From: Reyranella sp. CPCC 100927
GTDB lineage: Bacteria; Pseudomonadota; Alphaproteobacteria; Reyranellales; Reyranellaceae
Length of the DNA stretch: 64,000 nt
NCBI RefSeq assembly: GCF_007859315.1
Contig: NZ_VOHA01000003.1
Span: forward strand, 434,001-498,000
Direction of reading: 5' to 3'
The position numbers and the translations under genes are program-made. The notes under the pieces were generated by a model. The model did not search any database. It had not been told where the DNA came from and saw only the letters and a list, made by a program, of their open reading frames with translations. Below, piece by piece: positions 29,033-56,893 of the stretch; position 1 is the first letter of the stretch, and each line of letters starts with the position of its first letter.

Positions 29033-31684
29033 ATGTCCACGCAAGTTAAAGCCATGAAACTCCCGTCCACCCTATCTTCGCTGCGACGGATCGGGCAGCG
29101 CATCAAGCTGTCGCAAGAGCAACGGCTGATTGACGGGAGTGGCCTGTTCGACCGGACGTTCTACCGCGCGTCATATCCTGATGTAGCGCAGTCCGATCTC
29201 GATCCGGTACTTCACTACGCACTGCACGGTCATGAGGAGGGACGCAACCCATCCGCCGCATTCAATACGAAACAGTACAGACGACGGCACCGGTTGGCGG
29301 AGACCCAAAATCCGTTGATCCACTACATCAAGACCCGCCGTCGACGGAGAATCTCCAAGGCGCCATCCAGTCTGGAAGACATTGCGGCGTGGCAACTCGA
29401 GTCGGACGAGATCGAGCTCGCGACGCTTCCGCCGCCGGGTGAAATCGGCGTTTTCATTCACTTGTTCTACGATGATCTCGCCAAGGAAATACTCGCGCTT
29501 CTCGACAACATTCCGTATCCATATCGAGTCTATATTTCGACGGACACGACAGCGAAACAGCGCAGCATAGAAGTGGTCCTGGCTGAGCTTTCGTTAACCG
29601 AGAAAGCAGTCATCAAGGTTTTGCCCAATCGAGGATGGGACATTGGTCCTTTCCTTGTCGGTTTCGCCAGCGAGATCGCAAGCCATGACATTTGCCTCAG
29701 GCTGCAGGGCAAGAAGTCGACTTCCGAAGATCCGAAGTATGGCATCGAGTGGAGACGGCATATTTTCTCCGAACTCGTGGGGCATCCCATCCTCGTTCGC
29801 CGGATCGTATCGCTGTTGATGAGCTACGCCGACCTCGGCATCGTCATGCCGAGCCACTGGGACGGCATTTCGAGATGGCTGAGCGTCGGGAGCAATGTTG
29901 ATGCCATGCAATCCGTGCTCAGGCGACTGTCGGTGGACGTTCGGCTGCGCCGGGACCAGAAGGTCGAGTTTGCGAGCGGCTCGATGTACTGGTTCCGATC
30001 ACGGGCGCTTGGCCCGTTGCTCGACCTCAAGCTTGGCTGGGATGATTTTTCGCCGCCCGATGAAGGCGTGCGTGATGCAACGTTTGCGCACGGGATAGAG
30101 CGATCGCTGCTGTTCTGTGTCGCGAAAGGTGGCCTCCGCTGGTCGTTTTCGCCTGTGAAGCGGCTGTTGTCCGAGATGACAGAGCAGGTGTGCCAACAGA
30201 TTATCGAGCAGAGTGGCGCCTTCGACAAAGGCTACTACCTGGAGAAATACCGTGACGTCGCTCGCAATCAGTGGGATCCCGTCAAGCATTACGTCCACGA
30301 AGGTTGGAAAGATAACAGAAATCCTGCGCCTGATTTCAATGGGAGATACTACAAAGACCTGATCGAAAAGGCCGGCTATGTTGATGTCAATCCTTTGGTC
30401 CACTTTTTGATGGTGGGTCGCGCGCGCGGCCTTAGTGCACAGCGCAGGCTCGTGGGCCAGGCGACGATCGTCGTCGACGATCTGTACGGCGCCTACAGGC
30501 GTGCGGAGGATGCACCGACATACGTGCAGGAAACGACTCCCTCGATTCACCCCAGTGCTGTCAAGGCGATCGCCTTTTACCTGCCTCAGTTTCATCCCTT
30601 CGAGGAGAACAACCGCTTCTGGGGACGCGGATTTACCGAGTGGACCAATACGACCAAGGCGCAACCGATGTTCGAAGGGCATTACCAGCCGAGGTTGCCC
30701 GGTGAGCTTGGGTTCTATGATACGCGCATCAAGGACGTCATCAAACGGCAGATGGAATTGGCGCGACAGTACGGTATCCACGGCTTCTGCCTTCACCACT
30801 ATTTCCTGGAGGGCAGGCCCGTCATGCGCGTGCCCTACAATCACATCCTCGCGGACAAAAGCCTTGATCTGCCGTTTTGTTTACATTGGGCCAACGAGCC
30901 GTGGACGGCGCAATGGGACGGTGAAGCGCGGCAGCAGGGGACGCTTCTGACACAGCGTCATACGCCGGAAGACGATCTGGCCTTCTTCAAAGACATTGAG
31001 CCGGCGATCACCGATTCGAGATACATCACCGTGGACGGCAGACCGTTGCTGCTGATCTACCGGCCCAGCCTGTTTCCGAACATTAGGGCGACGGTCGAGC
31101 GATGGCAGGCATGTTGTCGGGCCATCGGTCTGCCGCCTCTATTCCTTGCCGCCATGCAGACGATATTCGACGGCGATGTGGATCCGCGGGCGTTCGGCTT
31201 CGATGCGGCTGTGGAGTTTCCACCGCACAACCTGCCAATCCCGAATGTTTCCGGATCAGTCAGTCTCTACGATCCAGGTTTCGAGGGAGCGATCTTCGAT
31301 TATCGGGCGGCCGTCGAAAAGGCTTTGGCCCGGCAGGCACCTTCGTACCCCTGTTTCCGGGGCATCGTGCCGGACTGGGATTGCACGCCGCGGCGTTCGA
31401 CCCCCGCCATGTTCATCAACAGTCACCCCGCGGTGTACAGGGAATGGTTGGAAAAGATCTGCGTGCAGACACATGACCGGCTTCCGGTTGACCGACAGTT
31501 CGTTTTCATCAACGCGTGGAACGAGTGGGCAGAGGGCGCATATCTTGAGCCCGACCGGAAGTACGGATATGCCTATCTACAAGCGACTGCTGATGCGTTG
31601 AACGGAGCGTCAAGGGCACCGCCGCGCATCGGCGCCGGGCGTGATCGGCCCGGCGTCGTACTGTCTGCTCAAGCTGGGGAGTAG
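29033..31684 (+). CDS. Multidomain glycosyltransferase: YPDV repeats, RgpF domain, WbsX domain
   Basis: 883-residue modular protein. Residues ~39-106: two copies of the 38-residue YPDV repeat. Residues ~135-370: rhamnan-synthesis protein F (RgpF) domain (GVFIHLFYDDLAKEIL; LPNRGWDIGPFLVGF). Residues ~397-470: two more repeats. Residues ~510-865: WbsX (GH99-like) domain with IAFYLPQFHPFEENNRFWG, GFTEWTNTTKAQP, HWANEPWTAQWDG and FINAWNEWAEGAYLEP. RgpF and WbsX proteins occur in rhamnose-rich glycan assembly, but their exact reactions are not settled. ATG 29033 was chosen over the TTG at 29021, with a weak GAGTGG upstream. It lies directly after the KpsE-like gene in the same operon. Confidence 0.88.
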   Translation: MSTQVKAMKLPSTLSSLRRIGQRIKLSQEQRLIDGSGLFDRTFYRASYPDVAQSDLDPVLHYALHGHEEGRNPSAAFNTKQYRRRHRLAETQNPLIHYIKTRRRRRISKAPSSLEDIAAWQLESDEIELATLPPPGEIGVFIHLFYDDLAKEILALLDNIPYPYRVYISTDTTAKQRSIEVVLAELSLTEKAVIKVLPNRGWDIGPFLVGFASEIASHDICLRLQGKKSTSEDPKYGIEWRRHIFSELVGHPILVRRIVSLLMSYADLGIVMPSHWDGISRWLSVGSNVDAMQSVLRRLSVDVRLRRDQKVEFASGSMYWFRSRALGPLLDLKLGWDDFSPPDEGVRDATFAHGIERSLLFCVAKGGLRWSFSPVKRLLSEMTEQVCQQIIEQSGAFDKGYYLEKYRDVARNQWDPVKHYVHEGWKDNRNPAPDFNGRYYKDLIEKAGYVDVNPLVHFLMVGRARGLSAQRRLVGQATIVVDDLYGAYRRAEDAPTYVQETTPSIHPSAVKAIAFYLPQFHPFEENNRFWGRGFTEWTNTTKAQPMFEGHYQPRLPGELGFYDTRIKDVIKRQMELARQYGIHGFCLHHYFLEGRPVMRVPYNHILADKSLDLPFCLHWANEPWTAQWDGEARQQGTLLTQRHTPEDDLAFFKDIEPAITDSRYITVDGRPLLLIYRPSLFPNIRATVERWQACCRAIGLPPLFLAAMQTIFDGDVDPRAFGFDAAVEFPPHNLPIPNVSGSVSLYDPGFEGAIFDYRAAVEKALARQAPSYPCFRGIVPDWDCTPRRSTPAMFINSHPAVYREWLEKICVQTHDRLPVDRQFVFINAWNEWAEGAYLEPDRKYGYAYLQATADALNGASRAPPRIGAGRDRPGVVLSAQAGE
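29147..29350 (+). repeat. YPDV repeats, two copies (second degenerate), N-terminal to RgpF
   Basis: Repeat 1 covers residues 39-76 (FDRTFYRASYPDVAQ, then DLDPVLHYALHGHEEGRNP). Repeat 2 (residues 77-106) keeps FNTKQY and NPLIHYI but loses the glycine-rich end. The unit is 38 residues (114 bases). Confidence 0.7.
30221..30442 (+). repeat. YPDV repeats, two copies, between the RgpF and WbsX domains
   Basis: FDKGYYLEKYRDVARNQWDP with HYVHEGWKDNRNPAP, then FNGRYYKDLIEKAGYVDVNP with HFLMVGRARG. Same unit as in the proteins at 31.7, 44.3 and 55.3 kb, here used as a linker between two catalytic-type domains. Confidence 0.7.
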
Positions 31685-31722
31685 TCCGCGATGCTGACTG
31701 CGCCCTCGCATCGGAGCAAGCG

Positions 31723-34173
31723 ATGACGGCAGTACTGAGTCACCTGCTTGCGCCGTTCCGCAGACCCGACGTCGTAGACAATCCGCTCCTCGACAATGCC
31801 ATTGGCCGGCCACTCGCCAGCGCCCTGCATCGGCTCGCCAGCAGATACTGGTTGCGGCAGCAACGCCATTTGCTGTCACGTACGACTGCGCCGCTTCGTT
31901 TTGATGCCGAATGGTACTTGGCGCGCTATCGCGACGTACAGATGGCACGCGTTGATCCGCTCGTTCACTATCTTGAGCACGGCGTATCGGAAGGCCGCGA
32001 TCCTCATCCGCTGTTTCATGCTCCTTGGTATCTCTTTCAGACGGAGGCATCCGAGGAAATCAAGGCTAATCCGCTGGGACACTATTTGAAGGAAGGTGCA
32101 GCTCAGGGGCTTTCTCCCCATCCGCTCTTCGATCGCGAATACTATCGAAAGTCAAATCCGGACGTGGCCGCGAGCGGCATGGATCCGTTGACTCACTTTC
32201 TGCTTCATGGCGACAAGGAGAGGCGCTCGCCTCATCCGCTGTTCAATGCTGAATTCTACTTGAGAACCAATCCGGATATACGCGCGGAATCCGGTGCATT
32301 GCGTCACTACCTGACCAGTGGCGGTGCAGAAGGACGCTGGCCTCATCCAGTATTTGATGCACAGTACTATTTTCGGCTGTATCCGGAACTCGAGCGGGCG
32401 GCGAATCCGCTTGTTCACTATCTGATGCAATCGCTGGAGTTGCGGCGCCTACCGCATCCGCTCTTCGATGGGGGATATTTTCGGATGCTGTCTGCTCTCT
32501 CTCCGAGAGCGGCAATAGATCCGTTGGTGGACTACGTCGAGTGGCTTTCAAATGTTGATCCTGCTCTTGCCCGGGGCGGAATGACCTACAGCCTGCCCCC
32601 GATGCGAGAGTCGGTTCGTGACGATTCGCGATCCCCGCTCCAGAAGCAGCCACTCGTCTCCATCCTGATACCAACCTACAACTCAGACCGAGAGCTGCTG
32701 ACGGTGGCAGTGGACAGCGTGCGCGCGCAGACCTATCGGAACTGGGAGTTGGTCATCGTGGACGATGGTTCCCCGGCGGCGCACATGGGGCCGTTGCTGG
32801 AGATGCTCGCGGCCCGCGATCCGCGCATCAGGACAGCCAGGTTGTCACGCAACAGCGGCATCTCGGAGGCGACGAATGAGGCCCTCCGCCTGGCGAAGGG
32901 GGACTACATAGCCCTGGTTGATCACGATGACTTGCTGGTGCCGGAGGCGATCGAGGAGGTGCTGTACGCAATGGATGGCCAAGGTGCCGATGTGGCGTAC
33001 AGCGATCAGGCGTATAGCTCAGCCGAAGGAACCTTCGAGTCACCGTTCTATAAGCCAGACTGGTCTCCAACGCTGTTTGCCGGCGTCATGTATGTCGGGC
33101 ATCTCCTTGTTGTGCGTCGCGCGTTGGCCGTGGCAGTCGGCGGCTTCGACAAGGCTTATGATCGCGTGCAGGACTTCGAGTTCATGTTACGGGTCAGCGA
33201 GCGCGCCGACGAGATCGTCCATGTGCCAAGAATGCTGTATCACTGGCGACGCGCGCCGGGCAGCGTCGCCGCCGACGCCAACGCCAAGGGCAAGGTTGAG
33301 CCGGTACAGTGCAAGGCGGTCAATGCCCATTTCATGCGGACTGGCTTTCCCGCAGAGGCGACACCGCATCCGGACCTGCCACATCGCCTCACGATCAAGC
33401 CGAACAGTCGCCTGTCGTACCCGGACATAGAGGCCCTCGTTTGTGGCTGGAAGCGCCCATCAAACGCTGTTGCCGCGTGCGTCGCTCGACTCGAAGACAA
33501 GAGATCGCGGCTGGCAAATGTCCGCGTGATTTCCCCTCGGTCCGCTAGGGGGGCGCTGGAAAGTGGCGGCAGCCTGAACGCGCCGCTGGCCGATGCGCTG
33601 GCTGAAGCTCTCGACACTATGTCGTCTCGCTACCTCCTTTGGATCGATCCGCTCGTTCAGATCGATAATCCGCGTTGGCTGGACTATCTACTGCTGTATG
33701 CGGAACAGCCGGACGTCGCGTTCGTCGGTCCTCATTTGTATCACCGCGATGGTCGGGTCGGTGCCGCCGGGCTTGTGCTCGACAAAGCCGGGCTCTTGCC
33801 TGCCATGCCGGGTTTTCGGCTAGGTGACGACGGCTACGCGGGTGCGCTCGCCTGTGATCGGGAAGTATTCGCGTTGTATCCGGCCCTGATGATGATCGAT
33901 ACCGCCGTTCTGCGGACGCTTGGTGGGTTCGATCGGGCTTTCGTCTCGCCATACTATCTTTTCGGCGAGGCGGCTGCCCGCGCCGTATGGGCGGGCTATC
34001 GTAACATCGGAATCGCTACGGCGCTCACGACCGTGGATGGCGACTACCTGGCCATGCCGGCGGAGGCGGCCATCGATGCCATGCTTTTCCTGGAGAAGCA
34101 CGGAAGCAACAAGAACCTCGTTGATCCACGCTACAGTCCGAACTTTGCGTCCGGGAGAGCCGATTACACCTAG
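31723..34173 (+). CDS. GT2-family glycosyltransferase with N-terminal YPDV repeats
   Basis: 816 residues. Residues 60-247 hold five tandem YPDV repeats (a sixth is degenerate to ~280). Residues ~308-530 form a GT2 (GT-A fold) domain with VSILIPTYNSDRELL, LVIVDDGSP, the nucleotide-binding VDHDD and a C-terminal EFMLRVSERADEIVHVPRMLYHWR acceptor region. The last ~250 residues resemble a second, incomplete GT2 segment (LLWIDPLVQIDNPRWLDYLL; GPHLYHRDGRVGAAGLVL) without the first half of the fold. CGGAG lies 6 bases before the ATG. It follows the WbsX protein by 38 bases. Sugar specificity unknown. Confidence 0.9.
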   Translation: MTAVLSHLLAPFRRPDVVDNPLLDNAIGRPLASALHRLASRYWLRQQRHLLSRTTAPLRFDAEWYLARYRDVQMARVDPLVHYLEHGVSEGRDPHPLFHAPWYLFQTEASEEIKANPLGHYLKEGAAQGLSPHPLFDREYYRKSNPDVAASGMDPLTHFLLHGDKERRSPHPLFNAEFYLRTNPDIRAESGALRHYLTSGGAEGRWPHPVFDAQYYFRLYPELERAANPLVHYLMQSLELRRLPHPLFDGGYFRMLSALSPRAAIDPLVDYVEWLSNVDPALARGGMTYSLPPMRESVRDDSRSPLQKQPLVSILIPTYNSDRELLTVAVDSVRAQTYRNWELVIVDDGSPAAHMGPLLEMLAARDPRIRTARLSRNSGISEATNEALRLAKGDYIALVDHDDLLVPEAIEEVLYAMDGQGADVAYSDQAYSSAEGTFESPFYKPDWSPTLFAGVMYVGHLLVVRRALAVAVGGFDKAYDRVQDFEFMLRVSERADEIVHVPRMLYHWRRAPGSVAADANAKGKVEPVQCKAVNAHFMRTGFPAEATPHPDLPHRLTIKPNSRLSYPDIEALVCGWKRPSNAVAACVARLEDKRSRLANVRVISPRSARGALESGGSLNAPLADALAEALDTMSSRYLLWIDPLVQIDNPRWLDYLLLYAEQPDVAFVGPHLYHRDGRVGAAGLVLDKAGLLPAMPGFRLGDDGYAGALACDREVFALYPALMMIDTAVLRTLGGFDRAFVSPYYLFGEAAARAVWAGYRNIGIATALTTVDGDYLAMPAEAAIDAMLFLEKHGSNKNLVDPRYSPNFASGRADYT
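31900..32463 (+). repeat. Five tandem YPDV repeats in the GT2 protein
   Basis: Units of 38, 38, 38, 37 and 37 residues starting at F60, F98, F136, F174 and F211, each ending P-H-P-L/V. The best copy is FDREYYRKSNPDVAASGMDP with HFLLHGDKERRSPHPL. DNA copies have diverged, so the repetition is old at the nucleotide level. Confidence 0.85.
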
Positions 34174-34218
34174 CTGCCAACAGACAATGTCTCGCCGGCA
34201 GTCGGAGAACCAGGGCCC

Positions 34219-36474
34219 ATGAATCTTTGTTTCGTCGCGCATTGCAACTTCCGCGGTAACAGCGCGATGCATGTTTTCAGTCTGGCGACCGAGCTTACCA
34301 AGCTGGGACATGAGTGCGTGATTGTGGTGCCTGACAGCCCCGAAACCGTTCATGAGCACGGCGAGCCAAGCTTTGGTGTGCTGGACTATGAAACTGCGTG
34401 GAAGAAGGGCATCGCCTTCTCCAACACGCAGGGACCAGATCTGGTGCATGCCTGGACGCCACGCGAGCACGTCCGTCAGATCACGACGAAGATGACGCGA
34501 CGATACCGCTGTCGGCATGTCGTCCACATGGAGGACAACGAGGAGCAGGTCGTCCGGGACGAACTGCGGGGATTTAGCGATACCGATATCCTGTCCCTGC
34601 CGCACGATGTGATAGACGGACTGATCGGCCCGCACCGATCCCATCCGTATCGTTACCGCCGTTTCATGGAAGCGGCCGCGGGTTACTCTTGCTTGATCGA
34701 CAATCTACTGGAATTCAAGCCGGCGGATGTTCCCGGCATGGTTTTCTGGCCGGGCTTTGATACGCCGTTCGAGAATGTCTCTGCGGAGGATCGCCGCGCG
34801 CGCGCCAAGTACGGTATCGACGAACGCGACATCGTGATTCTCTACTCGGGAAACGTCCATCCCTCCATCGCGACCGATATCCAGAAACTCTATGCCACAG
34901 TCGGCTTGCTCAGACATTACGGCCTGCCGGTCAAACTGGTGAGAACCGGCTGGACCTATGCTTCTCTGGGTTTTGCCGATGCGGCGGATCTTTCGGACTA
35001 CGTGATCGATCTTGGGTTTGCGCCAAGAGCGGACATCCCGGTTCTGGTCGGGATGTCCGATATCCTGATTCAGCCGGGACGCAGCGATCCATTCAATGAT
35101 TACCGTTTCCCGTCGAAACTTCCTGAATATCTGGTTTCCGGCCGGCCCGTGATTCTGCCTGATACCAATATTGGCAAGGCTCTTGAGGACGGCAAGCACG
35201 TCCTCAAGCTCTACGACGGTTCAATCGCTGAACTGCTGCGTGCCGTTCGAGCGTTAATCGAGTCCCCATCGTTGGGGCAGGAACTGGGCCGCAACGCACG
35301 GGCCTTTGCGCAGCGTTTTCTGACGTGGCCGCGCGCGGCGGCGGCGCTCGACGAGCTGTACCGGCGCATCCCGGCATCGCCGCCCGCAACGGCGGTGCCG
35401 GGAGACGAGCTTTCTCGGAAAGCATCGGATAGGAGCGTGTACGGCGAAGAAGCGACGACAGACCATGGTAATACGACCGCCAAGGCGCTGCCGCTCGTAC
35501 GGTTTCCTGTCAAATTGATAGCATTCCGGCATCCACATTCCCGCCAAGGCGATAGAGTTGGCCAACAGACGACAACCAACCCGCTTGTCATGCATGAAGA
35601 GACTTCTCTCGCGAGGGAGCACGGGATACACGGCTTCTGCTTCCATGAATGGGCTCACGCTGACCGCGGATCAGAAGACGATTCCCTGCTCGGCGAATGG
35701 ATCTCGGCGCAAGGCCTCGATTTTCCGTTCTGCGTCTGCTGGAACCTGGAGCCAGATCCTGCAATCGACCGGTCCGGAACGATCACCACGGCTCCATGGT
35801 TCGAAAGGCAATTCGTCGAGCGGCTTCTGCCCATACTCGATGATCGGCGGTACATTCGGGTAGACGGCGCTCCGCTGCTGCTCGTGCGTGACAGCGCCCC
35901 TGCCCGCGACCGTGTCGGGGCAACGCAGGCATGGCGGCAGCTTGCCAGGGACCATGGCATCGATCGACTCCATCTGTGCGCGATTGAGTCCATCGGTACC
36001 CGCTGTCAGAGGCCGCTTGGGTTCGATGCCGCAGTTGAAGCGCCGTCGGCAGGAGGCAGCAAGCTGCCATCGGCGACGTGGTCGAATGACTATATTGCCG
36101 TTGCCCTGAGAAGCATGAACCAGCCACCGATCGATCACGTCAGGTACAGGTGCGTGCTCCCTCCTGGAGATGGCGTCCGGGACAATATGGTCGATCCGCG
36201 TCTCATCAACGATAGCCCGAAAGCCTACGGCCAATGGCTCCGCTACGGGGTGCGCGAAGCGATGCGGCGGCGCCAGCAACAGGAACCGCTTGTGTTCATC
36301 GACGGATGGAACCAAGGAGCGATCGGGACATGTCTGCAGCCCAACGGACGGCACGATCGATCATTGCTCAAGGTAACGTACGACGCCTTGTCTGAAGGCA
36401 TCATCGACTGTGGAAGGGGGCCGACGCCCGAGAGGGAACGGGAGTTTGCAGCACGGATCGCACGTCTGGCCTGA
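34219..36474 (+). CDS. GT4-like glycosyltransferase fused to a degenerate WbsX domain
   Basis: 751 residues. Residues 1 to ~395 form a GT-B glycosyltransferase of the GT4 type (CFVAHCNFRGNSAMHVFSLA; ILYSGNVHPSIATDIQKLYA; SDILIQPGRSDPFNDYRFPSKLPEYLVSG). After a linker, residues ~435-751 follow the WbsX layout (LAREHGIHGFCFHEW; FPFCVCWNLEPDP; IRVDGAPLLLVRD). The signature NAWNEWAEGAYLEP of the 29.0-kb protein has become DGWNQGAIGTCLQP here, and the GFTEW motif and much of the first third are missing. The WbsX part is therefore probably inactive or repurposed. The ATG follows the repeat-GT2 gene by 45 bases. Specificity unknown. Confidence 0.82.
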   Translation: MNLCFVAHCNFRGNSAMHVFSLATELTKLGHECVIVVPDSPETVHEHGEPSFGVLDYETAWKKGIAFSNTQGPDLVHAWTPREHVRQITTKMTRRYRCRHVVHMEDNEEQVVRDELRGFSDTDILSLPHDVIDGLIGPHRSHPYRYRRFMEAAAGYSCLIDNLLEFKPADVPGMVFWPGFDTPFENVSAEDRRARAKYGIDERDIVILYSGNVHPSIATDIQKLYATVGLLRHYGLPVKLVRTGWTYASLGFADAADLSDYVIDLGFAPRADIPVLVGMSDILIQPGRSDPFNDYRFPSKLPEYLVSGRPVILPDTNIGKALEDGKHVLKLYDGSIAELLRAVRALIESPSLGQELGRNARAFAQRFLTWPRAAAALDELYRRIPASPPATAVPGDELSRKASDRSVYGEEATTDHGNTTAKALPLVRFPVKLIAFRHPHSRQGDRVGQQTTTNPLVMHEETSLAREHGIHGFCFHEWAHADRGSEDDSLLGEWISAQGLDFPFCVCWNLEPDPAIDRSGTITTAPWFERQFVERLLPILDDRRYIRVDGAPLLLVRDSAPARDRVGATQAWRQLARDHGIDRLHLCAIESIGTRCQRPLGFDAAVEAPSAGGSKLPSATWSNDYIAVALRSMNQPPIDHVRYRCVLPPGDGVRDNMVDPRLINDSPKAYGQWLRYGVREAMRRRQQQEPLVFIDGWNQGAIGTCLQPNGRHDRSLLKVTYDALSEGIIDCGRGPTPEREREFAARIARLA

Positions 36475-36547
36475 GTGGATTCAGTCGACTGTGCGCCGTG
36501 AATTCGCGTTAACGGGATGACGACCACGACGGAGAAGCAAGGCAACG

Positions 36548-40216: not shown

Positions 40217-40228
40217 ACGGAGCTTGTC

Positions 40229-44329: not shown

Positions 44330-46135
44330 ATGATTGCCGTTGATCGCTCGAAACCTTCGAAGCATGGAGGCTGGTTGGGACGGCATCTGCGGGAAATTCG
44401 TGCTCGGCGCCGACAGCGCGCTCTGTTCGATGCGGGCTGGTACCTTGAACAGAATGAGGATGTTGCCGCGGCTGGCGTGGACCCGTTTGCTCACTATCTG
44501 GAACACGGCTGGCGGGAGCAACGAGCCCCTCATCCCCTGTTTAGTACGAGTTGGTACCTCAGTAGAAATGAGGATGTTCTCTCTGCACGCTTGGAGCCAT
44601 TACGCCACTATCTGATGCATGGCTGGCGGGAAGGGCGGTCCCCCCATCCGCTCTTCGACGTGGGATGGTATTTGTCCCAGAACCCAGATGTTGCCGCATC
44701 CGGCGCTGAACCCTTGTTGCACTATCTGAAGCGCGGGTGGCGAGAGGCCCGTGCGCCACACCCATTGTTCGACGTTGCTCGGTACCTCGAGCGGTATCCA
44801 GACGTTGCTGCAGCGGGCCGCGAGCCCTTGTCCCACTATCTCCAGATGGGGTGGCGGGAAGGACGCGATCCTTGTGCCTTCTTTTTTCCGGCTTGGTACA
44901 GGAGTCAAAATCCGGACGTGATGTCGGCGGACACCGAGCCCTTTTCTCACTACCTCGCGACAGGCTGGAGGAAGGGGAGGGCACCACACCCCCTGTTCGA
45001 TGTTGAGTGGTACCTTGACCGGAACAAGGACGTTGCTATGGCGGGCAAGGAACCGCTGGCACATTATGTGACAAGTGGCTGGCTGGAGAAACGGCAGCCG
45101 AGCGCAGTGTATTCCCGTGTAGCGCCACGGGCGCTTGAAGTTGCCGGAAGCGCCGGGGTACGGCACCCAGTGGAGGATGTTTTCGAATACTTCCGAAGCC
45201 ACCGCGAGCTTCTCGAAGCTGAAACGTGGGCGATGCACGAAAATCATCCGGTGACGCGCTTGCGCTACGAGTTGATCGGATGTCGCAATGATTTCCGCGG
45301 CAAGAACGTTTGCCTGTTTGCCTGTCACTGTCCGGACGGGCGCATGGATCCGACGACGAATTTGATGCTGCGGTGGATCAGGAATTCAGGGTTCTCGGTG
45401 GTTTGCATTGTGGCGAACGGAAGCACGGTGAGCTTCGAGTACCCGGGTGACGATCCGGATCTTTGCTTTATCGTACGAGACAATGTCGGATACGACTTTG
45501 CTGGTTGGGCACTTGCGCTGTCTGTCTTGCCGACATTGTGGCTGGCAAACGCCGTCCTGTTTGCCAACGACAGTGTCTTCGGCCCGGTTGATTCACCGAC
45601 GAATGGGCTGATCCGTGATTCGCTTGCCTCGCCAGCAGATTGCGTAGCACTGACGGCGTCCCAACAGGAATCTCTTCATTTTCAGAGTTACTTCTTCCTG
45701 GTTAAGAGAAAGGTTCTGGAATCCTCCCACTTTCGGGCGTTTTGGGCCGCGGTTCGCGTCGTCAACGACCAGAGAAGAATTATCATGCAATACGAGATCA
45801 AATTACTCTCGGTTGTGATCATGTCCGGTGCGTCGTGCCATGTCGTTTTTCAGTCGCTTTGTGACAACTACGCGGACCCCATAAACCCTACACTGTATCA
45901 CTGGCGTGAGCTCATTGATGCAGGTTTCCCTTTCCTGAAGAAGCGTGTCGTAACGGACGACTTAGAGGTAGTTGATCGAAAAGGATGGCTCGACGTTATT
46001 CAGAATCCCGAATTGAGAAAACATCTGATGACCCATCTCACGCGGGGAGAGCAAGACGCACCATCAGCGAGTCTGCTTCGTACGCGGTCAGTGCACTCAC
46101 GACGCCAGAATGCTTCAGCGGCGACGGGGTACTGA
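44330..46135 (+). CDS. RgpF-domain protein with six tandem YPDV repeats
   Basis: 601 residues. A short basic N-terminus is followed by six perfect-length 38-residue YPDV repeats (residues 33-260). A linker and a C-terminal RgpF-type domain (~325-560) follow: NVCLFACHCPDGRMDPTTNL; FIVRDNVGYDFAGWALAL; LANAVLFANDSVFGPV. RgpF proteins are linked to rhamnan glycan synthesis but the reaction is not firmly established. ATG 44330 has AGAGG 7 bases upstream; ATG 44312 is in frame but less supported. The 3' end overlaps the convergent methyltransferase gene by 21 bases. This protein has the cleanest repeat array of the locus. Confidence 0.88.
   Translation: MIAVDRSKPSKHGGWLGRHLREIRARRRQRALFDAGWYLEQNEDVAAAGVDPFAHYLEHGWREQRAPHPLFSTSWYLSRNEDVLSARLEPLRHYLMHGWREGRSPHPLFDVGWYLSQNPDVAASGAEPLLHYLKRGWREARAPHPLFDVARYLERYPDVAAAGREPLSHYLQMGWREGRDPCAFFFPAWYRSQNPDVMSADTEPFSHYLATGWRKGRAPHPLFDVEWYLDRNKDVAMAGKEPLAHYVTSGWLEKRQPSAVYSRVAPRALEVAGSAGVRHPVEDVFEYFRSHRELLEAETWAMHENHPVTRLRYELIGCRNDFRGKNVCLFACHCPDGRMDPTTNLMLRWIRNSGFSVVCIVANGSTVSFEYPGDDPDLCFIVRDNVGYDFAGWALALSVLPTLWLANAVLFANDSVFGPVDSPTNGLIRDSLASPADCVALTASQQESLHFQSYFFLVKRKVLESSHFRAFWAAVRVVNDQRRIIMQYEIKLLSVVIMSGASCHVVFQSLCDNYADPINPTLYHWRELIDAGFPFLKKRVVTDDLEVVDRKGWLDVIQNPELRKHLMTHLTRGEQDAPSASLLRTRSVHSRRQNASAATGY
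44426..45109 (+). repeat. Six tandem 114-base units coding the YPDV repeat
   Basis: Six units of exactly 38 codons starting at F33, F71, F109, F147, F185 and F223. A typical unit reads FDVGWYLSQNPDVAASGAEP followed by LLHYLKRGWREARAPHPL. Period and reading frame are perfectly kept while the DNA copies differ at many positions, indicating selection on the protein. Confidence 0.92.
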
Positions 46136-48103: not shown

Positions 48104-49375
48104 CTACGCCATGTGATTGCGTACAAGGCTAATCGCCCCGCAGAAGGCGGCCCACACGACGAACCCCCCGCCAAGCGCCAGCGCAGTGAACAGGATCGGC
48201 CTGGGATAACGCGAGTCTTGCGGCACTGACGGGCGCACAAAGGTGGCGAGGTAGACGAGCTGCCGCTCACTCGTGATGCGCGCCACTTCGAGGGCGGCGG
48301 CGGCGGTCGCGTAGTGACGCTCTGCGATCCGGCGTTCCAGGTCCTGCTGGGCGAACTTGGTCAGGGATTCGGAGAGGACCTTGTCGTTGGGTGCCGTCGT
48401 GCTTGCCCGCTGGGTCGTCAGCCGGGCTTCCAGTTCCGCGATCTGGTCCGCCATCGCGTTGAGACGAGCGGTGAGGGTACGCATCTGTGGTGCGGATGCC
48501 GAGACGTACTTGCGCTGCGTCTCGTACTCTTGCTGCAGACGCAGGCGCTCGCCTTGCAGGGCCGTGATGAGGTCTGCCAAGGCCTTGCCCTGCTGGCCGG
48601 CATCGAGGGTTCCTTCGGTGTTGCGCACCTTCTGGAATTCGATGCGCGCCCGGCTGAGGCGTTCGGCGCTGCGCTCGAACTCGCGCTCGGCGTCAGCCAC
48701 GGTCGCCCGCATCATGCGGCCGTTCATATCGTTGACCAGCGCCTCGCTGAGCTCGATCACGGCATCGGCAATGCGCTTGGCGTCCTCGGGACTGAAAGCG
48801 CGCACGGTGAAATCCACGATGCCCGACTGGAGCTGGATGTTGAAATGCGTCTTGGACACCCAGTAGTCCACGACCTTCTCGATCGGCTTCTCGCGATTGA
48901 GGCGGGAGAACCAGTCGATATCGTCAGCACCGTAGAGGTTGCGCAAACCCAGTCGCTCTTCCAGGGCCTCCACGAGCGCGCGGCTCTCCATGTAGCTCGT
49001 CACCACCTGGGTGTCCTGGGCGATCTTGGCCAGGGGTATGCCCGTCAACGCGCCGACGCCATCGATCTTGGGGAGTTCGCCCGTGCGCACAGCAAACTTT
49101 GCTTCGGCGACATACTGCGGCGTGGCGATGAAGCCGAAATAGACTCCCGCTACCACGGTAGGCGCGACAACCAGCAATCCAAAGCTGACCAGGAAGACCA
49201 TCCGGAACAGGCGCGCATGGCGTCGCATCCGAATGGAGCCGGTTCCGAACGCCCGCCGGCTGCGCTTGGACATTTTGAGGCGGCGGGCGGTCTCGGCCAA
49301 GGAGCGCGACATCAGCTCCGCCCGGCGCACGGCAGGCGCCCTTTCGTCAGGGGGCGAAACCTCGTTGTCGCTCAT
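48104..49375 (-). CDS. KpsE-like capsule polysaccharide export inner-membrane protein, copy 2
   Basis: 423-residue polysaccharide co-polymerase of the KpsE type. It has a basic N-terminus, a first membrane helix at ~57-80 (FRMVFLVSFGLLVVAPTVVAG), the post-helix motif TPQYVAEAKFAVRTGEL, and long coiled-coil helices at ~210-355. RPSVPQDSRYPRPILF and a final helix (ALALGGGFVVWAAFCGAISLV) follow. It lies upstream of kpsT on the same strand in reading order (kpsT starts at 50200, ends 49547; this gene starts 172 bases further on), so it is probably the partner of this ABC exporter. It shares layout and several motifs with the copy at 27.7-29.0 kb. Confidence 0.9.
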   Translation of the reverse strand: MSDNEVSPPDERAPAVRRAELMSRSLAETARRLKMSKRSRRAFGTGSIRMRRHARLFRMVFLVSFGLLVVAPTVVAGVYFGFIATPQYVAEAKFAVRTGELPKIDGVGALTGIPLAKIAQDTQVVTSYMESRALVEALEERLGLRNLYGADDIDWFSRLNREKPIEKVVDYWVSKTHFNIQLQSGIVDFTVRAFSPEDAKRIADAVIELSEALVNDMNGRMMRATVADAEREFERSAERLSRARIEFQKVRNTEGTLDAGQQGKALADLITALQGERLRLQQEYETQRKYVSASAPQMRTLTARLNAMADQIAELEARLTTQRASTTAPNDKVLSESLTKFAQQDLERRIAERHYATAAAALEVARITSERQLVYLATFVRPSVPQDSRYPRPILFTALALGGGFVVWAAFCGAISLVRNHMA

Positions 49376-49470
49376 ACGCTATAACCCTTCCGCTCTGATG
49401 CTGAGATCGCTAGTGCCGCCGTGCCGGTGCGGAGGGTTATCCGTGCCTATGGGCCCTGGTCACACCACCG

Positions 49471-49499
49471 CAAGATCCTTCGCGACGCTCAGGATGACC
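49471..49499. repeat. Dispersed AT/GC hairpin element of the 'SFATLRMT' type
   Basis: The sequence around GATCCTTCGCGACGCTCAGG resembles a short element scattered through intergenic regions of many bacterial genomes. Its spurious translations read SFASLRMT or ILRxAQDD; here they read SFATLRMT and ILRDAQDD. It contains ATCCT/AGGAT inverted arms. Recognition is from memory of such translations; no genome comparison was possible. Confidence 0.4.
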
Positions 49500-49546
49500 G
49501 TGGAACAATCCACACCAAACATCCGCACTCTTTTCCGGACAATGCA

Positions 49547-50200
49547 CTAGCGATTCAGCCGATTGTACACTTCAATGGCCTTGTCCACGGTATCAAACTG
49601 CATCAGGTGCCCGTCAACCAGGACAGCACCACGGCTACAGTAAGCCTTAATCGTGGCCATGGTATGTGAGACGACAATGACATCGGCTTTGGCGCGCCGC
49701 GCGGCGAAGGCCTCCTCGCAGCGTCGCTGGAAACGCATATCGCCGACGCCGGTGATCTCGTCGACCAGGTAGCATTCGAACTCGATGGCCATTGAGACGC
49801 CAAACGCCAAACGCGCCGCCATGCCTGAGGAATACGTGAGGACGGGGGCGTCGAGATAGTCGCCGAGCTCCGAGAAGTCCTCGACGAAACGCACCACCCG
49901 GCGGACATCTTCGCCATAAATGCGTGCGATGAATTTTATATTGTCCCGGCCGCTGACGTGGCCATGGAAACTGCCGCCGAAGCCCAGCGGCCAGGACACC
50001 CGGACATTGCTCCTAATGCGGCCGGCATTGGGCAGTTCGGTCCCCGCGATCAGCCGCAGCGTTGTCGATTTCCCGGCGCCATTCACGCCCAGCAGGCCAT
50101 ACGACCACCCGCTTTCGAAGACGGCCGAAACATGGTCGAGCACCACCTTCATGTGCTGCGGCGTCTTGTAGAACTTGTATACGTTCTGGAGCTGGATCAT
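49547..50200 (-). CDS. kpsT: Capsule polysaccharide ABC transporter ATPase KpsT
   Basis: 217-residue ATPase, the usual KpsT length: IQLQNVYKFYKTPQHMKVVLD, Walker A (GVNGAGKST), Q-loop region WPLGFGGSFHGHVSGRDN, signature YSSGMAARLAFGVSM and Walker B (ECYLVDEITGVGD). WPLGFGGSF is typical of capsule/O-antigen exporters. The frame continues upstream to 50269, but family homology begins at ATG 50200. Unlike the usual kpsM-kpsT operon, its permease partner is encoded divergently, 63 bases away. It powers export of the finished polysaccharide across the inner membrane. Confidence 0.95.
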   Translation of the reverse strand: MIQLQNVYKFYKTPQHMKVVLDHVSAVFESGWSYGLLGVNGAGKSTTLRLIAGTELPNAGRIRSNVRVSWPLGFGGSFHGHVSGRDNIKFIARIYGEDVRRVVRFVEDFSELGDYLDAPVLTYSSGMAARLAFGVSMAIEFECYLVDEITGVGDMRFQRRCEEAFAARRAKADVIVVSHTMATIKAYCSRGAVLVDGHLMQFDTVDKAIEVYNRLNR

Positions 50201-50263
50201 TTTCCCAGGAAATCTCGGTCGGCTTTCTGGCACGGCAGAACGCTGACCTAATACGGTAGGTCG

Positions 50264-51067
50264 ATGCACATCTCAACCGGTACCCATCAGTCGACACTCG
50301 CACTGCTGCGACTCCAGTTCCGTGTGATCGTCGCCATCATGCTGCGGGACATCCGGACCCGCTTCTTCGGGCATGGTTTGGGCTACCTGGTCATGATCGG
50401 ATGGCCCCTGGTTCACATCCTGATCCTGCTGGGCATCTACACACTGCTCGGCCGCGCCACGCCGTATGGCGAAAGCATGGCGCTGTTCTTTGCCACCGGA
50501 TTGGTGCCTTTCATGGCGTACAATTACATGTCCCGGTGGACGATGATCGCGTTGCTCTTCAACAAGTCGCTGCTGGCATTTCCGGTGATCAAGACCCTGG
50601 ATGTGCTACTGGCGCGTACAGTGCTCGAAGCGCTGGGCAATTTCTGCTCCGTGATCCTGCTGATATTCATTCTCTGGATGGTCGACATCGATTGCATGCC
50701 CATGGACATGGTCCAGGCGTGTTATGCGCTCGGCGCTGCGATGTTGCTGGGTGCCGGGTTCGGCATCGTGCACGGCATCATTGCCATGGCCATTCCCACG
50801 TGGGCGACCGGCTATGCGTTGGTCATTGTCTTCATGTACATGATCTCGGGCGTCTTCTTCGTGCCCAGCGCAATGCCAGAGACCCTGCGGTACCTCCTGT
50901 CGTTCAATCCCGTGCTCCAGACCGTCGAATGGATGCGCTCGGCGTATTATGAGGGCTATTCGACGATCCTCGACAGAAGCTACGCTGTCTGGTTCGGGCT
51001 GGTGCACGTTTCGCTGGGCCTGATCATCGAGCGCCTTGTTCGGGGTCACCTGCTGATGGCCCGATAG
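50264..51067 (+). CDS. kpsM: Capsule polysaccharide ABC transporter permease KpsM
   Basis: 267-residue ABC-2-type permease with about six hydrophobic segments and the KpsM-type motifs IMLRDIRTRFFGHGLGYLVMI, FFATGLVPFMAYN and YMISGVFFVPSAMPETLRYLLSFNPVLQTVEWMR-like C-terminal region (two consecutive segments). It forms the membrane channel for KpsT. It is divergent from kpsT with only 63 bases between the coding regions, so both promoters must overlap there. A two-domain GT2 gene follows 15 bases after its stop. Confidence 0.95.
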   Translation: MHISTGTHQSTLALLRLQFRVIVAIMLRDIRTRFFGHGLGYLVMIGWPLVHILILLGIYTLLGRATPYGESMALFFATGLVPFMAYNYMSRWTMIALLFNKSLLAFPVIKTLDVLLARTVLEALGNFCSVILLIFILWMVDIDCMPMDMVQACYALGAAMLLGAGFGIVHGIIAMAIPTWATGYALVIVFMYMISGVFFVPSAMPETLRYLLSFNPVLQTVEWMRSAYYEGYSTILDRSYAVWFGLVHVSLGLIIERLVRGHLLMAR

Positions 51068-51082
51068 TCCCGCCAGCCGCTG

Positions 51083-53266: not shown

Positions 53267-53309
53267 GAAGCGCGCATCAACGTCGCCGCCATCCTTCGGG
53301 AGATGCCTC

Positions 53310-54209
53310 TTGTTCGCCAAGCTGTTTCGCACCGCGTCGAGTCTGGTGGGGCTTCCAGTCCAGCCTGACAGCGGTTCAGACAGGAAGCAGCATTCCTCCC
53401 GCGTTTCGCGATCCGGCACCGACGTGGTGTTGGACTCATATGTCGATGCCGTGCCCAGCGCGCAGAACGCCATCGATATCGTGCCGGGTTGGAATCACGC
53501 GATGCCGCCCCATGTCGGCGCGACGGCCGGCGACACACCGCTCTACGAGGACATCAGGATTCCATGGTGCCTGGAGCAGTTCGGATCCGTCAGTGGCCGC
53601 AAGATCCTGGAGCTCGGACCGCTTGAAGGCATCCACACCTACCTGCTGGATCAGCAGGGGCCGGCGTTCATCCATGCCATCGAGGCCAACAGGCTGGCGT
53701 TCCTGCGCTGCCTGATCACCAAGGAGCTGCTGGAGATCAAGCACGCCAAGTTCATGCTCGGCAACTTCCTGCCCTGGCTCGAACGGACCGACGTCAAATA
53801 CGATCTGATCATTGCATCGGGTGTGCTCTACCACATGAGCGATCCGGTGCACCTGCTGGAGCTGATCGGCCGGCGCTCCGATGCTGTCTATCTATGGACG
53901 CACTATTTCAGCGAACAGGCGATGCCCCCTGGCGATGAACGACGCGAGGCTCTGTCCGGCGATGTCGAAACCATAGCGTTTCGCGGCCTGACCGTGCCCC
54001 TGTATCGCCGCGGCTACCACAATGCGTGGAAGGCCAAGGCGTTCTGCGGCGGAATGCATGACCGCCACTACTGGATGGAAAGGGAGGATATCATGAGAGT
54101 CCTGGGTTTGCTCGGGTTCGACGACATCCGCATTGCGCACGATCAGCCCGACCACTCCAATGGTCCGGCATTCTCGGTCTTCGCCAGGCGATCCGCAGCC
54201 GGGGCTTGA
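53310..54209 (+). CDS. SAM-dependent methyltransferase (CmoB/DUF1698-like)
   Basis: 299-residue methyltransferase. Motif I reads KILELGPLEGIHTYLLDQQG, then IHAIEANRLAFLRCLITKELL and the catalytic-region YDLIIASGVLYHMSDPVHLLELIG. GVLYHM-x-DP is characteristic of the DUF1698/CmoB-like branch. A C-terminal part with HDRHYWMEREDIMRVLGLLGF follows. The start codon is TTG at 53310, supported by GGGAG 7 bases upstream; no ATG lies near. It is 43 bases after the two-domain GT2 gene and 51 bases before the PhyH-like gene. Probable sugar or lipid-carrier methylation. Confidence 0.87.
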   Translation: MFAKLFRTASSLVGLPVQPDSGSDRKQHSSRVSRSGTDVVLDSYVDAVPSAQNAIDIVPGWNHAMPPHVGATAGDTPLYEDIRIPWCLEQFGSVSGRKILELGPLEGIHTYLLDQQGPAFIHAIEANRLAFLRCLITKELLEIKHAKFMLGNFLPWLERTDVKYDLIIASGVLYHMSDPVHLLELIGRRSDAVYLWTHYFSEQAMPPGDERREALSGDVETIAFRGLTVPLYRRGYHNAWKAKAFCGGMHDRHYWMEREDIMRVLGLLGFDDIRIAHDQPDHSNGPAFSVFARRSAAGA

Positions 54210-54260
54210 CCGGCACCGTGAACTCGGCATGACTCGGTCTGGTATCTCGATGGAACGGAA

Positions 54261-55247
54261 ATGCTGACGATCGGCAGTCTGCGACGAAAGGTTGTTCGCC
54301 TGAACGGCGATTTCCGCCGCCATTATTTTGCCGACGTGCCGGTCGACCTGGACGCGATCGGCGAATTGCGCGGCGACGCCTTTCCCGCCAGCGGTCCGGC
54401 GCCCTGGCTGGACAGGCCCGATGCGCTGCTGGCCGTGGATCGTCGCCTTGCCGAGGGAACGATCACGGCAGGCGATGCGGAGCTTTGCCGCCAATGGATC
54501 GTCGACGGCTACCTCATCGTCGAGAACCTGATCGAGCACGACCTGTTGGACCGGACGTGGGAAGCCTATGAGCAGGCCATCCGGGACGGGCGCGTGACGC
54601 TCGATCCGGAGAGCCATGGCGAGGGGGATCCGTATCCGGGTCGGAACCTTGATCCGCACGTGCAGCTACCGGCGATCGCCGCGTTGCAGAGCCATCCGAC
54701 GATCCTGCGCATCACCAACCTGCTGTTCGGCCGGGAGACAATTCCGTTTCAGACCATCATGGGGCACAAGAGCAGCGCGCAGCGCCCGCATTCCGATGCC
54801 ATCCACATGACGACGTATCCGCTGGGATACCTGATCGCCAACTGGATCGCCTTCGAGGACATCCATCCCGACAGCGGACCGCTCGAGTATTATCCCCGGA
54901 GCCATCGGTTGCTGCCCTATCTGCTGAGCGGGGACATCGGCATCGCGCCGCGGGCGTTCAAAGAGAAGGGCTACGCCCTCTACAATGAACGGTACGAGCC
55001 GACGATCGAGCGGTACCTGAATGCCCATCGGCTGGAGCCGCAGTTCTTTTGCCCGCGCAAAGGCGACGTACTGTTCTGGCACGCCAACCTGGTGCACGGT
55101 GGATCGCTTCGGAAAGATCTGCGTCATTCGAGGCGGGCACTGGTGTGCCACTACTTCGCCCGGGGTGCGGTGACCTATCACGACCTTTCCGGCAATCCAT
55201 CGCGGCTGCACCGCGATGGGCTATATACCGCACCGCATCCCGACTGA
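54261..55247 (+). CDS. Phytanoyl-CoA dioxygenase (PhyH) family protein, copy 2
   Basis: 328-residue Fe(II)/2-oxoglutarate oxygenase-type protein. It has the metal ligands H177-x-D179 (RPHSDAIHM) and H279 (NLVHGGS), followed by arginines (RHSRRALVCHYF) that may hold 2-oxoglutarate. The family start CRQWIVDGYLIVENL and the mid-domain NWIAFEDIHPDSGPLEYYPRSH are clear. It follows the methyltransferase and converges with the methyltransferase-repeat gene, 8 bases apart. Likely hydroxylates a glycan or lipid component; substrate unknown. It shares only the fold motifs with the copy at 20.2-21.3 kb. Confidence 0.89.
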   Translation: MLTIGSLRRKVVRLNGDFRRHYFADVPVDLDAIGELRGDAFPASGPAPWLDRPDALLAVDRRLAEGTITAGDAELCRQWIVDGYLIVENLIEHDLLDRTWEAYEQAIRDGRVTLDPESHGEGDPYPGRNLDPHVQLPAIAALQSHPTILRITNLLFGRETIPFQTIMGHKSSAQRPHSDAIHMTTYPLGYLIANWIAFEDIHPDSGPLEYYPRSHRLLPYLLSGDIGIAPRAFKEKGYALYNERYEPTIERYLNAHRLEPQFFCPRKGDVLFWHANLVHGGSLRKDLRHSRRALVCHYFARGAVTYHDLSGNPSRLHRDGLYTAPHPD

Positions 55248-55255
55248 CGGCATAC

Positions 55256-56893
55256 TCAGCCGAGGCAAGCAACCTCGACGTGAGGGCCCGGCCTCCGACC
55301 CTCGCGGGCACCGTGACAGAGATAGTGCTCCAACGGATTGAGGCCGGCCTGCAGGACGTCAGGGTACGTCTCAAGATACCAGTGGCAGTCGAATAGCGGG
55401 TGAGGGTTGCGCAATTCGCGGGCGCCGAACTCCACGAAGTGGACGAGGGGGTTGCAGCCATTACCCGCGACGTCGGGATTTGTGGCGAGATACCACGACG
55501 TGTCGAACAATGGATGCGGATCACAGCCGGCCTGTGCCCCGTCGTGCAGGTAGTGCAGTAGCGGATTGTCGTCGGATTCGATCATGCTCTGCTCTGCGTA
55601 CCATTCGCAGTCGAATAGGGGATGCGGCGAGCGCCGCTCCCTGGCCCCGAAACGCAGAAAGTGCACCAGAGGATTGACGCCGCTTGCCGCAACGTCGGGA
55701 TTGCACTGGAGGTACCACGACGTGTCGAACAACGGGTGCGAGTCATATCCTTGGGCGGCGCCCATAAGGACATAGTGACGAAACGGATCGGCGCTCGACC
55801 GAGCGACGTCAGGGTACTTCTTCAGATACCAATCCCGGTCAAACAATGGCGCGACAGGGCCATGGCGCAGGCGCCGGTACATTGAGTTGCACTGGCGCCG
55901 CGCGACGAGAAGGGTATTGCCTGCCTTGTAGGACCAAGACCCTTTCAGAAAGCTCACCTCAGCGTCCAGCACGCCCTGCCGGCTGGACGTTTCCTTGAGA
56001 TCGCGGGTCAGGATGGCGATGTTTACATCTCTTTGCCCAATGACGCTGCGCTGCTGCTCGATTTCCTTCGACCGCGCCTCGATCTCCGCCGATTGACGCT
56101 CGATCTCCTTCAGCTGCCGATTGATCTCATGTGATTGTTGATGACTTTGTTCTTGGGCCGCATGCAGTGATGCCTCGAGTTGCCCGATGCGCGAATCGCG
56201 ATCGGTAACCTCCGCAACCCTCCGAGCTTCCAGGTGCCCGATGCTTGCGGTGCAATCGGTGAGAAGGCGCATGTCTTCCGTAAACTCTTCCGCCTTGATC
56301 CGTTGATGGTTGATTCCATCGTATATGTTCCGGCAAGGAGTGCTGTCGTATACACGCCCTGGGGGCACCGGATGGGGGTGGTCGCCGTCCCGGCGGAACA
56401 CGGCCGCGAAGTCATTCCAGGTATCGCTTGCACGTTCTGCGATAAACGACTCGATTAACGTGGCTGGCCAGCGCTCACTCTTCGTGAGCGCCTCCAATGC
56501 CGTGCCCGCATCAGGATAGAATCGCCAGCAGTCGACCGGGAAGCCGTGAACCTTCCCGTTTGATGGCGCATTGATGTAGATGTAGCCGCCCGGCTTCGTG
56601 ATACGGCACAGATTGTTGAATGTCCGCCAGAACTGCGGGTCGTGTTCAAAGACCGAGCTTGCCATCGCGACGTCAGCGACGCCGTCCCTCAGTGGCATGT
56701 CTGCGCCCGGGGCCGTCACAAGATCAACACCGCGGCCGGGTTCGATATCGATGCCAATGTAGTGGGACCCTGGTGGCGCAACGGCTCGCAATGACCCGTT
56801 GACGTCCATCGATCCGATTTCGACGATCGTGCAGCGCTGCGGCGCATATACCTCGAAGAACAGTTTCCCGATTGCGAGGGCGGTATCATGCAT
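55256..56893 (-). CDS. Methyltransferase with coiled coil and five YPDV repeats
   Basis: 545-residue chimera. The N-terminal ~200 residues are a SAM-dependent methyltransferase (CTIVEIGSMDVNGSLRAVAP; YIGIDIEPGRGVDLV; VAMASSVFEHDPQFWRTFNNL; GGYIYINAPSNG). Residues ~215-330 are highly charged heptad-type helices rich in E, Q, R and S (EINRQLKEIERQSAEIEAR), a coiled coil. The last ~190 residues are five YPDV repeats. A methyltransferase carried on a coiled coil recalls WbdD, the capping and chain-length ruler of ABC-exported O-antigens, although no kinase domain is seen. ATG 56893 was chosen; GTG 56914 is in frame upstream. It is the only repeat protein on the minus strand. Confidence 0.87.
   Translation of the reverse strand: MHDTALAIGKLFFEVYAPQRCTIVEIGSMDVNGSLRAVAPPGSHYIGIDIEPGRGVDLVTAPGADMPLRDGVADVAMASSVFEHDPQFWRTFNNLCRITKPGGYIYINAPSNGKVHGFPVDCWRFYPDAGTALEALTKSERWPATLIESFIAERASDTWNDFAAVFRRDGDHPHPVPPGRVYDSTPCRNIYDGINHQRIKAEEFTEDMRLLTDCTASIGHLEARRVAEVTDRDSRIGQLEASLHAAQEQSHQQSHEINRQLKEIERQSAEIEARSKEIEQQRSVIGQRDVNIAILTRDLKETSSRQGVLDAEVSFLKGSWSYKAGNTLLVARRQCNSMYRRLRHGPVAPLFDRDWYLKKYPDVARSSADPFRHYVLMGAAQGYDSHPLFDTSWYLQCNPDVAASGVNPLVHFLRFGARERRSPHPLFDCEWYAEQSMIESDDNPLLHYLHDGAQAGCDPHPLFDTSWYLATNPDVAGNGCNPLVHFVEFGARELRNPHPLFDCHWYLETYPDVLQAGLNPLEHYLCHGAREGRRPGPHVEVACLG
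55280..55843 (-). repeat. Five tandem YPDV repeats at the C-terminus of the methyltransferase
   Basis: Units of 38, 38, 36, 38 and 38 residues. Examples: FDTSWYLQCNPDVAASGVNP with LVHFLRFGARERRSPHPL, and FDCHWYLETYPDVLQAGLNP with LEHYLCHGAREGRRPGPH. The third unit lacks two residues and its PDV motif. Confidence 0.88.

Follow-up and report, generated by a model that had tools for sequence, protein, structure and literature searches.

Chain terminators of the WbdD type (E. coli O8/O9a; K. pneumoniae O7 ORF6) are among the known systems closest to the one presented here. According to two sources (PMC3482155, PMC11231755), these proteins are encoded in ABC-transporter loci and have an N-terminal methyltransferase followed by a coiled coil, and their membrane-near part recruits, or is fused to, the glycosyltransferase (GT) modules of the polymerase. 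WbdD brings the WbdA polymerase to the membrane through its C-terminal region (PMC3482155), and the K. pneumoniae O7 protein carries two GT modules fused after its coil (PMC11231755).

The DNA analysed here, in the following called the window, is a stretch of 64,000 nucleotides from Reyranella sp. CPCC 100927 (contig NZ_VOHA01000003.1, positions 434,001 to 498,000). Judged by its genes, it contains what looks like a Kps-type capsule locus. The gene set of Group 2 (Kps) systems was found together: an outer-membrane polysaccharide export protein (OPX; Poly_export and SLBB in Pfam; 22804..24087, minus strand), a KpsT-like ABC ATPase recognised by motif patterns (Walker A and SSGM; 49547..50269, minus strand), with an internal Met as the probable start (217 aa), a KpsM-like ABC permease (ABC2_membrane in Pfam; 50264..51067, plus strand) and, 6.7 kb past the window end, a Capsule_synth gene of the KpsC/S family (Pfam; G000:C23:504722-505642). 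The protein at 48104..49375 (minus strand), which we take to be a KpsE/Wzz-like inner-membrane protein from the look of its sequence, had no Pfam match at 1e-3. The protein at 27697-29016 (plus strand) resembles it in look. The locus further holds sugar-nucleotide genes (RmlC, RmlD, nucleotidyl transferase, GDP-mannose dehydratase), glycosyltransferases and methyltransferases. To our knowledge, how capsule and O-antigen enzymes are held together and how the length of a Kps-type chain is set are open questions.

Four enzymes of this one capsule cluster carry the same repeat, which may keep chain builders and a chain modifier together at the membrane. An earlier note on this DNA had claimed a 38-residue 'YPDV' repeat in four window proteins, and 21 units of it were counted by profile search. 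The 21-unit profile matches exactly 4 of the 1108 window frames (stop-to-stop, at least 30 codons), namely P0001, P0002, P0003 and P0004, having 4, 6, 6 and 5 units, respectively. Profiles built with one protein left out recovered the omitted protein with E-values of 1.1e-30 (P0001), 2.3e-57 (P0002), 9.8e-89 (P0003) and 1.3e-72 (P0004). When all frames were shuffled 20 times at constant composition, the lowest E-value was 0.001, reached in one shuffle, and at least four of the others were without any match. The repeat is therefore far beyond chance, and chance or low complexity was ruled out as its source.

P0001 (29021..31684, plus strand, 887 aa; start codon TTG as listed, with an ATG four codons downstream) begins with units 1-2 (29147..29374), which follow a basic stretch with a net charge of +5 over 40 aa, and units 3-4 (30221..30448) separate its RgpF domain from its WbsX domain. 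P0002 (31723..34173, plus strand, 816 aa) has a six-unit array (31900..32565; the 40 aa preceding it carry net +6) followed by a GT2 domain. P0003 (44312..46135, plus strand, 607 aa) has a basic N-terminus (+9), a six-unit array (44426..45109) and an RgpF domain. These orders were assigned from Pfam and profile matches. P0004 (55256..56914, minus strand, 552 aa) starts with a methyltransferase (Methyltransf_11 in Pfam, E-value 4.6e-8 at residues 56-114), followed by a coiled coil predicted by a home-made heptad detector (frame residues 202-313; 55979..56314), a GSWSYKAGN junction, a basic stretch and five C-terminal units (55280..55843). No kinase match was found for P0004 in Pfam, and weak NCBIfam matches of SMC type accord with the coiled coil. 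A GT4-WbsX enzyme (34219-36474) and an RgpF-WsaF enzyme (42137-44269) share the locus and are free of the repeat, so not every participant requires an array.

The exact register of 38 codons put forward in the earlier note holds for most steps, including all those of P0003, but not for two steps of 37 in P0002 (38, 38, 38, 37, 37, with a short last unit) and one of 36 in P0004 (38, 38, 36, 38, with a degenerate third unit). Some units are degenerate, lacking both PDV and EGR. Its further claim, that the DNA copies have diverged while the protein unit is under selection, is in line with codon-position identity and codon usage. Among 16 full-length window units, the mean pairwise DNA identity is 49% between proteins and 56% within them, and the identity at codon positions 1, 2 and 3 is 55, 61 and 36%. 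An identical residue is encoded by an identical codon in 779 of 1937 cases in the window units. Synonymous drift together with a kept protein pattern therefore fits selection on the protein.

Neither Pfam nor NCBIfam has a model reaching its cut-off over the four window arrays, and a known repeat of these libraries (TPR, Sel1, PPR or other) was rejected for the window proteins on that ground. Inside the P0003 array, matches of NTP_transf_5 and DUF3201 in Pfam stay below the cut-off. A 19-residue TmoB match in the array of a relative (L135; 25.6 bits against a cut-off of 25) is taken as chance. A sequence search of the PDB gave no match to the repeat, and no mention of a 38-residue YPDV repeat was found in the open PMC literature. 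The 38-residue helical repeat is undescribed and is modelled by no library used here.

Structure prediction with AlphaFold2 was run on the P0003 array (44384-45166, 31 alignment rows), giving a mean pLDDT of 93.6 and a pTM of 0.88. The model is a solenoid having three short helices per unit. The array of an exported trypsin-like protein (L044), which has steps of 42-43 residues, was added and modelled with a pLDDT of 91.0 (22 rows). It repeats the helix pattern of P0003, with a longer second helix in two of the three units. From this predicted pattern and the sequences, enzyme arrays and exported arrays would have a common fold. Foldseek gave no match in the PDB at an E-value of 0.001 for either model, which for an array model does not prove a new fold, and VIA-align against four chains gave none at Z 2. 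Against predicted viral structures, 2 of 16 Foldseek rows pass an E-value of 0.001, both being glycosyltransferases of giant viruses (Fadolivirus and Hyperionvirus; E-values 4.5e-6 and 4.9e-4; 21 and 26% identity). Their likeness to the array model is one of predicted structure alone, and the TM-scores are low (0.16 by query).

Profile search with the repeat units found relatives of the four window proteins across several phyla. At an E-value of 1e-4 the repeat is present in 22 of 289 genomes of the class, 35 of 299 genomes of the phylum and 10 of 61 relatives, each count including the own genome. Scoring took in the top 25-150 first-look candidates of each genome, which makes the numbers of repeats per genome lower bounds. 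The 22 named loci belong to Acidobacteriota, alpha- and gammaproteobacteria, Sulfurovum and Bacillota. The repeat also occurs in 127 of 72,556 plasmid records, including Bacteroides and the cyanobacterium Trichormus. Among the 60 plasmid matches listed there are 35 polysaccharide-type enzymes (5 of these being near-identical Bradyrhizobium rows), 8 exported-type proteins, 10 hypothetical proteins and 7 without annotation. Viral contigs gave one locus (L175), with three good units in a 325-aa frame that had no domain match in a limited query set, and a single record, without annotation, came from phages. The repeat thus has a broad yet patchy distribution. At least two more repeat proteins are encoded in the same 9.08-Mb genome: L009, with the order Methyltransf_24, coiled coil (predicted) and six units, and L010, with eight units before a GT4 domain. 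No second repeat protein was found on the 193 kb contig of L009.

A set of 111 non-redundant repeat proteins was taken from loci of at least 4 kb, and 12 proteins were classed by hand from Pfam matches and one plasmid annotation; alignment A4 took in 40 of the 46 proteins without class at that stage. The set comprises 49 glycan-assembly enzymes (mostly GT2, GT4, RgpF, WbsX and methyltransferase), 29 exported proteins (RTX, trypsin-like, CAP-like, Ig-like) and 33 unassigned proteins, the RTX label meaning a Pfam match or two or more GGxGxD motifs. Counting steps of 30-60 residues, enzyme arrays have exactly 38 in 130 of 181, and exported arrays have 41-50 in 60 of 81 and 38 in 19. A C-terminal array is found in 22 of 29 exported proteins versus 5 of the 49 enzymes. 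However, three genomes supply 24 of these 29 (G271 with 9, G175 with 8 and G035 with 7), and two of them, G271 and G175, are of the same genus; the exported-protein statistics are therefore not independent and the contrasts are weaker than they appear.

The earlier note had interpreted the repeat as a docking or glycan-binding module gathering assembly enzymes into one complex or onto the growing chain. This is supported in part: one homologous module on different catalytic domains agrees with it, as does the helix pattern predicted alike for an enzyme array and an exported one, and the domain orders suggest that polymerase and terminator modules are brought together. Against it, 29 of the 111 repeat proteins are of exported type, and a second array protein occurs in only 8 of 42 enzyme loci within the stretch fetched. 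Hits outside polysaccharide loci, which the note had named as evidence against its idea, were found in part, namely the exported RTX, trypsin-like, CAP-like and Ig-like proteins, several of which have no adjoining polysaccharide gene (limited query set). Judging from these sequences, the repeat module is not confined to polysaccharide assembly, and its presence on secreted proteins suggests that it may be used more widely.

Glycan binding, in which the module would hold the nascent capsule or O-polysaccharide on enzymes and anchor exported proteins to the surface polysaccharide, is a serious rival because it would cover the exported proteins too, even if we consider it rather unlikely. It is consistent with a helix pattern predicted alike for glycan enzymes of the cytoplasm and for an exported protein, and the polysaccharide would be the one partner visiting both compartments. 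RTX/type I secretion genes adjoin the repeat proteins of three polysaccharide loci (L066, L067, L068). Rhizobial Rap proteins are a precedent, as these T1SS-exported proteins interact with the rhizobium's own exopolysaccharide (PMC9298526). In genome G271, at least ten array ORFs were found (8 RTX, 1 CAP-like, 1 without class), and nine of the ten arrays are C-terminal, as expected for a shared surface anchor. On the other hand, no enzyme-type protein is found among these ten or among the ten array ORFs of G175 (two without class), therefore exported arrays need no glycan from repeat enzymes. Furthermore, no carbohydrate-binding or SLH model of Pfam matched the window proteins, and the units are acidic on average, with a mean charge of -1.0 in enzymes and -2.0 in exported proteins.

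The sequence in front of the array divides the two protein contexts. In enzymes, the 40 residues before the array have a mean charge of +4.7 versus -0.6 elsewhere in the same proteins (Wilcoxon p 8e-10; 43 of 49 enzymes, the other six being too short or having no control stretch), and the same holds whether the array is N-terminal (26), internal (12) or C-terminal (5). The 26 unassigned proteins compared in this way have a weaker stretch (+1.9 versus -0.2, p 0.019), and 25 exported proteins have none (-2.6 versus -3.4, p 0.37). The basic stretch thus marks enzymes, not exported proteins. In P0003 a helix before the array is predicted by AlphaFold2; in the other proteins the stretch was judged from charge alone.

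Coiled coils and fusion proteins recur next to the enzyme arrays. The acidobacterial L053 combines methyltransferase, array, GT2 and GT4 in a single polypeptide (Pfam), and L055 and L056 have the same domain set by phmmer, with a coiled coil detected immediately before the array. A detected coiled coil precedes each of the five C-terminal arrays of enzymes (P0004, L009, L058, L063, L150) and 5 of the 12 internal ones, and in three methyltransferase proteins the array closes a coiled-coil protein, at the end by which rulers of the WbdD type recruit their polymerase. The coil lies before the array in 13 of the 15 proteins with a detected coiled coil and after it in two, counts that are inflated by four related acidobacterial proteins (L053-L056). 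The detector is home-made, and N-terminal arrays could hardly score with it. L059, L061 and L152, which are unassigned, likewise have a coiled coil and then a C-terminal array. Between coil and array, a junction (S/A)W(R/K)(L/I)xAPxR is found in L053-L056 and in the gammaproteobacterial L059 and L063, and a looser SW motif in P0004 and L009; a basic linker stands between junction and array.

Methyltransferase - coil - array and array - GT are separate chains both in the window and in L063, a locus on an E. coli plasmid. The export genes of L063 (OPX, ABC permease, ABC ATPase, KpsE-type) are followed by a methyltransferase - coiled coil - two-unit protein and by a second protein with one unit before GT2. 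A second array protein is present in 4 of 8 loci having a C-terminal coiled-coil array versus 4 of 37 other enzyme loci (p 0.024).

We tentatively propose, at a little short of an even chance, that the array is a membrane-proximal scaffold joining the polymerase and terminator modules of a capsule synthase. The basic stretch would probably lie against the cytoplasmic membrane from the inside, with the solenoid placing the glycosyltransferase modules at the foot of a coiled-coil 'ruler', the far end of which would bear the chain-modifying methyltransferase. In the window these parts lie on separate chains: P0004 has methyltransferase - coiled coil - array, and its counterparts are P0002 (array - GT2), P0003 (array - RgpF) and P0001 (array - RgpF - array - WbsX). 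The ruler may control chain length, with a capsule as the presumed product; since we know of no coiled-coil terminator in Kps-type capsules, a ruler in such a system is proposed by analogy. The one-chain fusion in L053, L055 and L056 of parts that the window splits argues for the scaffold, together with the coil before C-terminal arrays, the junction motif, the basic stretch, the split loci, the layout of L063, the WbdD precedent, the export genes within the window and the Capsule_synth gene beyond its end. The single repeat protein in most enzyme loci, L009 alone on its contig, the two repeat-free enzymes of the window locus, and the many arrays on exported proteins without a polymerase argue against it.

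Covariation within the repeat was measured on 374 of 446 aligned units, taken from 105 non-redundant proteins and having at most 8 gaps per unit. D12 and R33 are both present in 244 units and both absent in 88, with D only in 29 and R only in 13 (odds ratio 57, p 2e-45). Drawing one unit per protein, the median p is 5e-14 over 200 draws. V13 and E31 join this cluster. Between neighbouring units D12 and R33 show no link or a marginal one (p 0.54 and 0.04; 234 pairs). PDV and EGR therefore probably touch within one unit, as D12 and R33 covary within, not clearly across, units. Both residues are kept in 97% of 29 RTX-labelled units, 65% of 187 enzyme units and 59% of 158 others.

These data bear on a homotypic docking tag, by which arrays of different proteins would stack into one complex. 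The four array proteins of the window locus and the two to three in each of L058, L063, L066, L067, L129, L145 and L150 are what such stacking would give, but 34 of the 42 enzyme loci have one array protein within the stretch fetched (mostly 5-30 kb). With lone array proteins and the strong covariation lying within units, docking is unsupported as a general rule, and we consider it very unlikely. Still less credence is given to a rigid spacer or stabiliser without a partner, the unit number of which drifts by slippage. The unit number does range from 1 to 35 per protein among the 111, and degenerate units without PDV and EGR are tolerated; however, third codon positions diverge while the protein is conserved, the within-unit covariation is strong, and the array recurs at one position, following the basic stretch and also the coiled coil in proteins that have one. 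Codon divergence, recurrent place and covariation thus point to lasting selection, on structure or on function.

If the membrane-proximal scaffold is the right reading, a module marking the enzymes that work in one complex would make it possible to predict these complexes from sequence. A wider version, which we regard as improbable, is that the solenoid family with its basic stretch would be a general assembly platform for capsule and O-polysaccharide synthases in several phyla, linking terminators and polymerases also in Kps systems and serving RTX proteins as a surface anchor.

TPR, Sel1 and PPR alpha-solenoids are built of tandem helical units of approximately 34-38 residues. The YPDV array is similar in its tandem helical units and differs in having three short helices in each unit of the model, no Pfam match and no Foldseek match in the PDB at the threshold given above. 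SLH domains anchor exported proteins to surface polysaccharide in Gram-positives. Like SLH domains and Rap proteins, which are modules of exported proteins binding surface polysaccharide, YPDV arrays occur on exported proteins. Unlike SLH domains, they have no Pfam SLH match and are also found on cytoplasmic enzymes, and their glycan binding is putative.

P0004 shares with the WbdD-type terminators an N-terminal methyltransferase, a long predicted coiled coil and an ABC-transporter locus, and without a kinase match it is like the methyl-only O8 type. The ABC ATPase of the window has no C-terminal extension, unlike the WbdD-type systems. As regards the C-terminal membrane-associated helix of the WbdD type, P0004 has a net charge of +6 over the 40 residues before the array, judged from charge only, and its C-terminal part, compared with the WbdD type as described, is a predicted YPDV solenoid. 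By analogy with the WbdD type, P0004 is thus a candidate chain terminator.

The window locus contains two KpsE-like proteins, one at 27697-29016 on the forward strand and one at 48104-49375 on the reverse strand, the latter so named from its look, and a Pfam search at 1e-3 gave no match for either of them. Two other proteins of this locus, GT4-WbsX (34219-36474) and RgpF-WsaF (42137-44269), lack the repeat. The locus further encodes two PhyH-type dioxygenases, at 20230-21267 and 54261-55247; outside the window, a PhyH-cupin protein (L146:3657-7493) itself bears repeat units.

Using Foldseek, the AlphaFold2 model of the P0003 array was compared with the viral models in BFVD, where glycosyltransferases of Fadolivirus and Hyperionvirus were matched. 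Weaker matches included an FkbM-type methyltransferase and others.

An IncY plasmid of E. coli (NZ_AP027623.1, locus L063) carries a Kps-type export set. One protein encoded at this locus joins a methyltransferase, a predicted coiled coil and 2 units, and another repeat protein is a GT2 with one unit. Among 5426 E. coli genomes, 17 contain a match to the methyltransferase gene, and plasmids account for 15 of the 18 places matched.

The Azospirillum sp. B510 protein at L068:13563-18878, annotated as GT4, has about 35 unit matches with a pitch of mostly 36 residues. This is likewise a plasmid locus, with type I secretion genes present beside the repeat protein.

Ten array ORFs were found in each of two genomes of one genus, G271 and G175 (L115-L124, L155-L159). 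Eight of the ten are RTX-type in either genome, and the array is C-terminal in 9/10 (G271) and 10/10 (G175). In this the arrays resemble a common anchor or sorting module.
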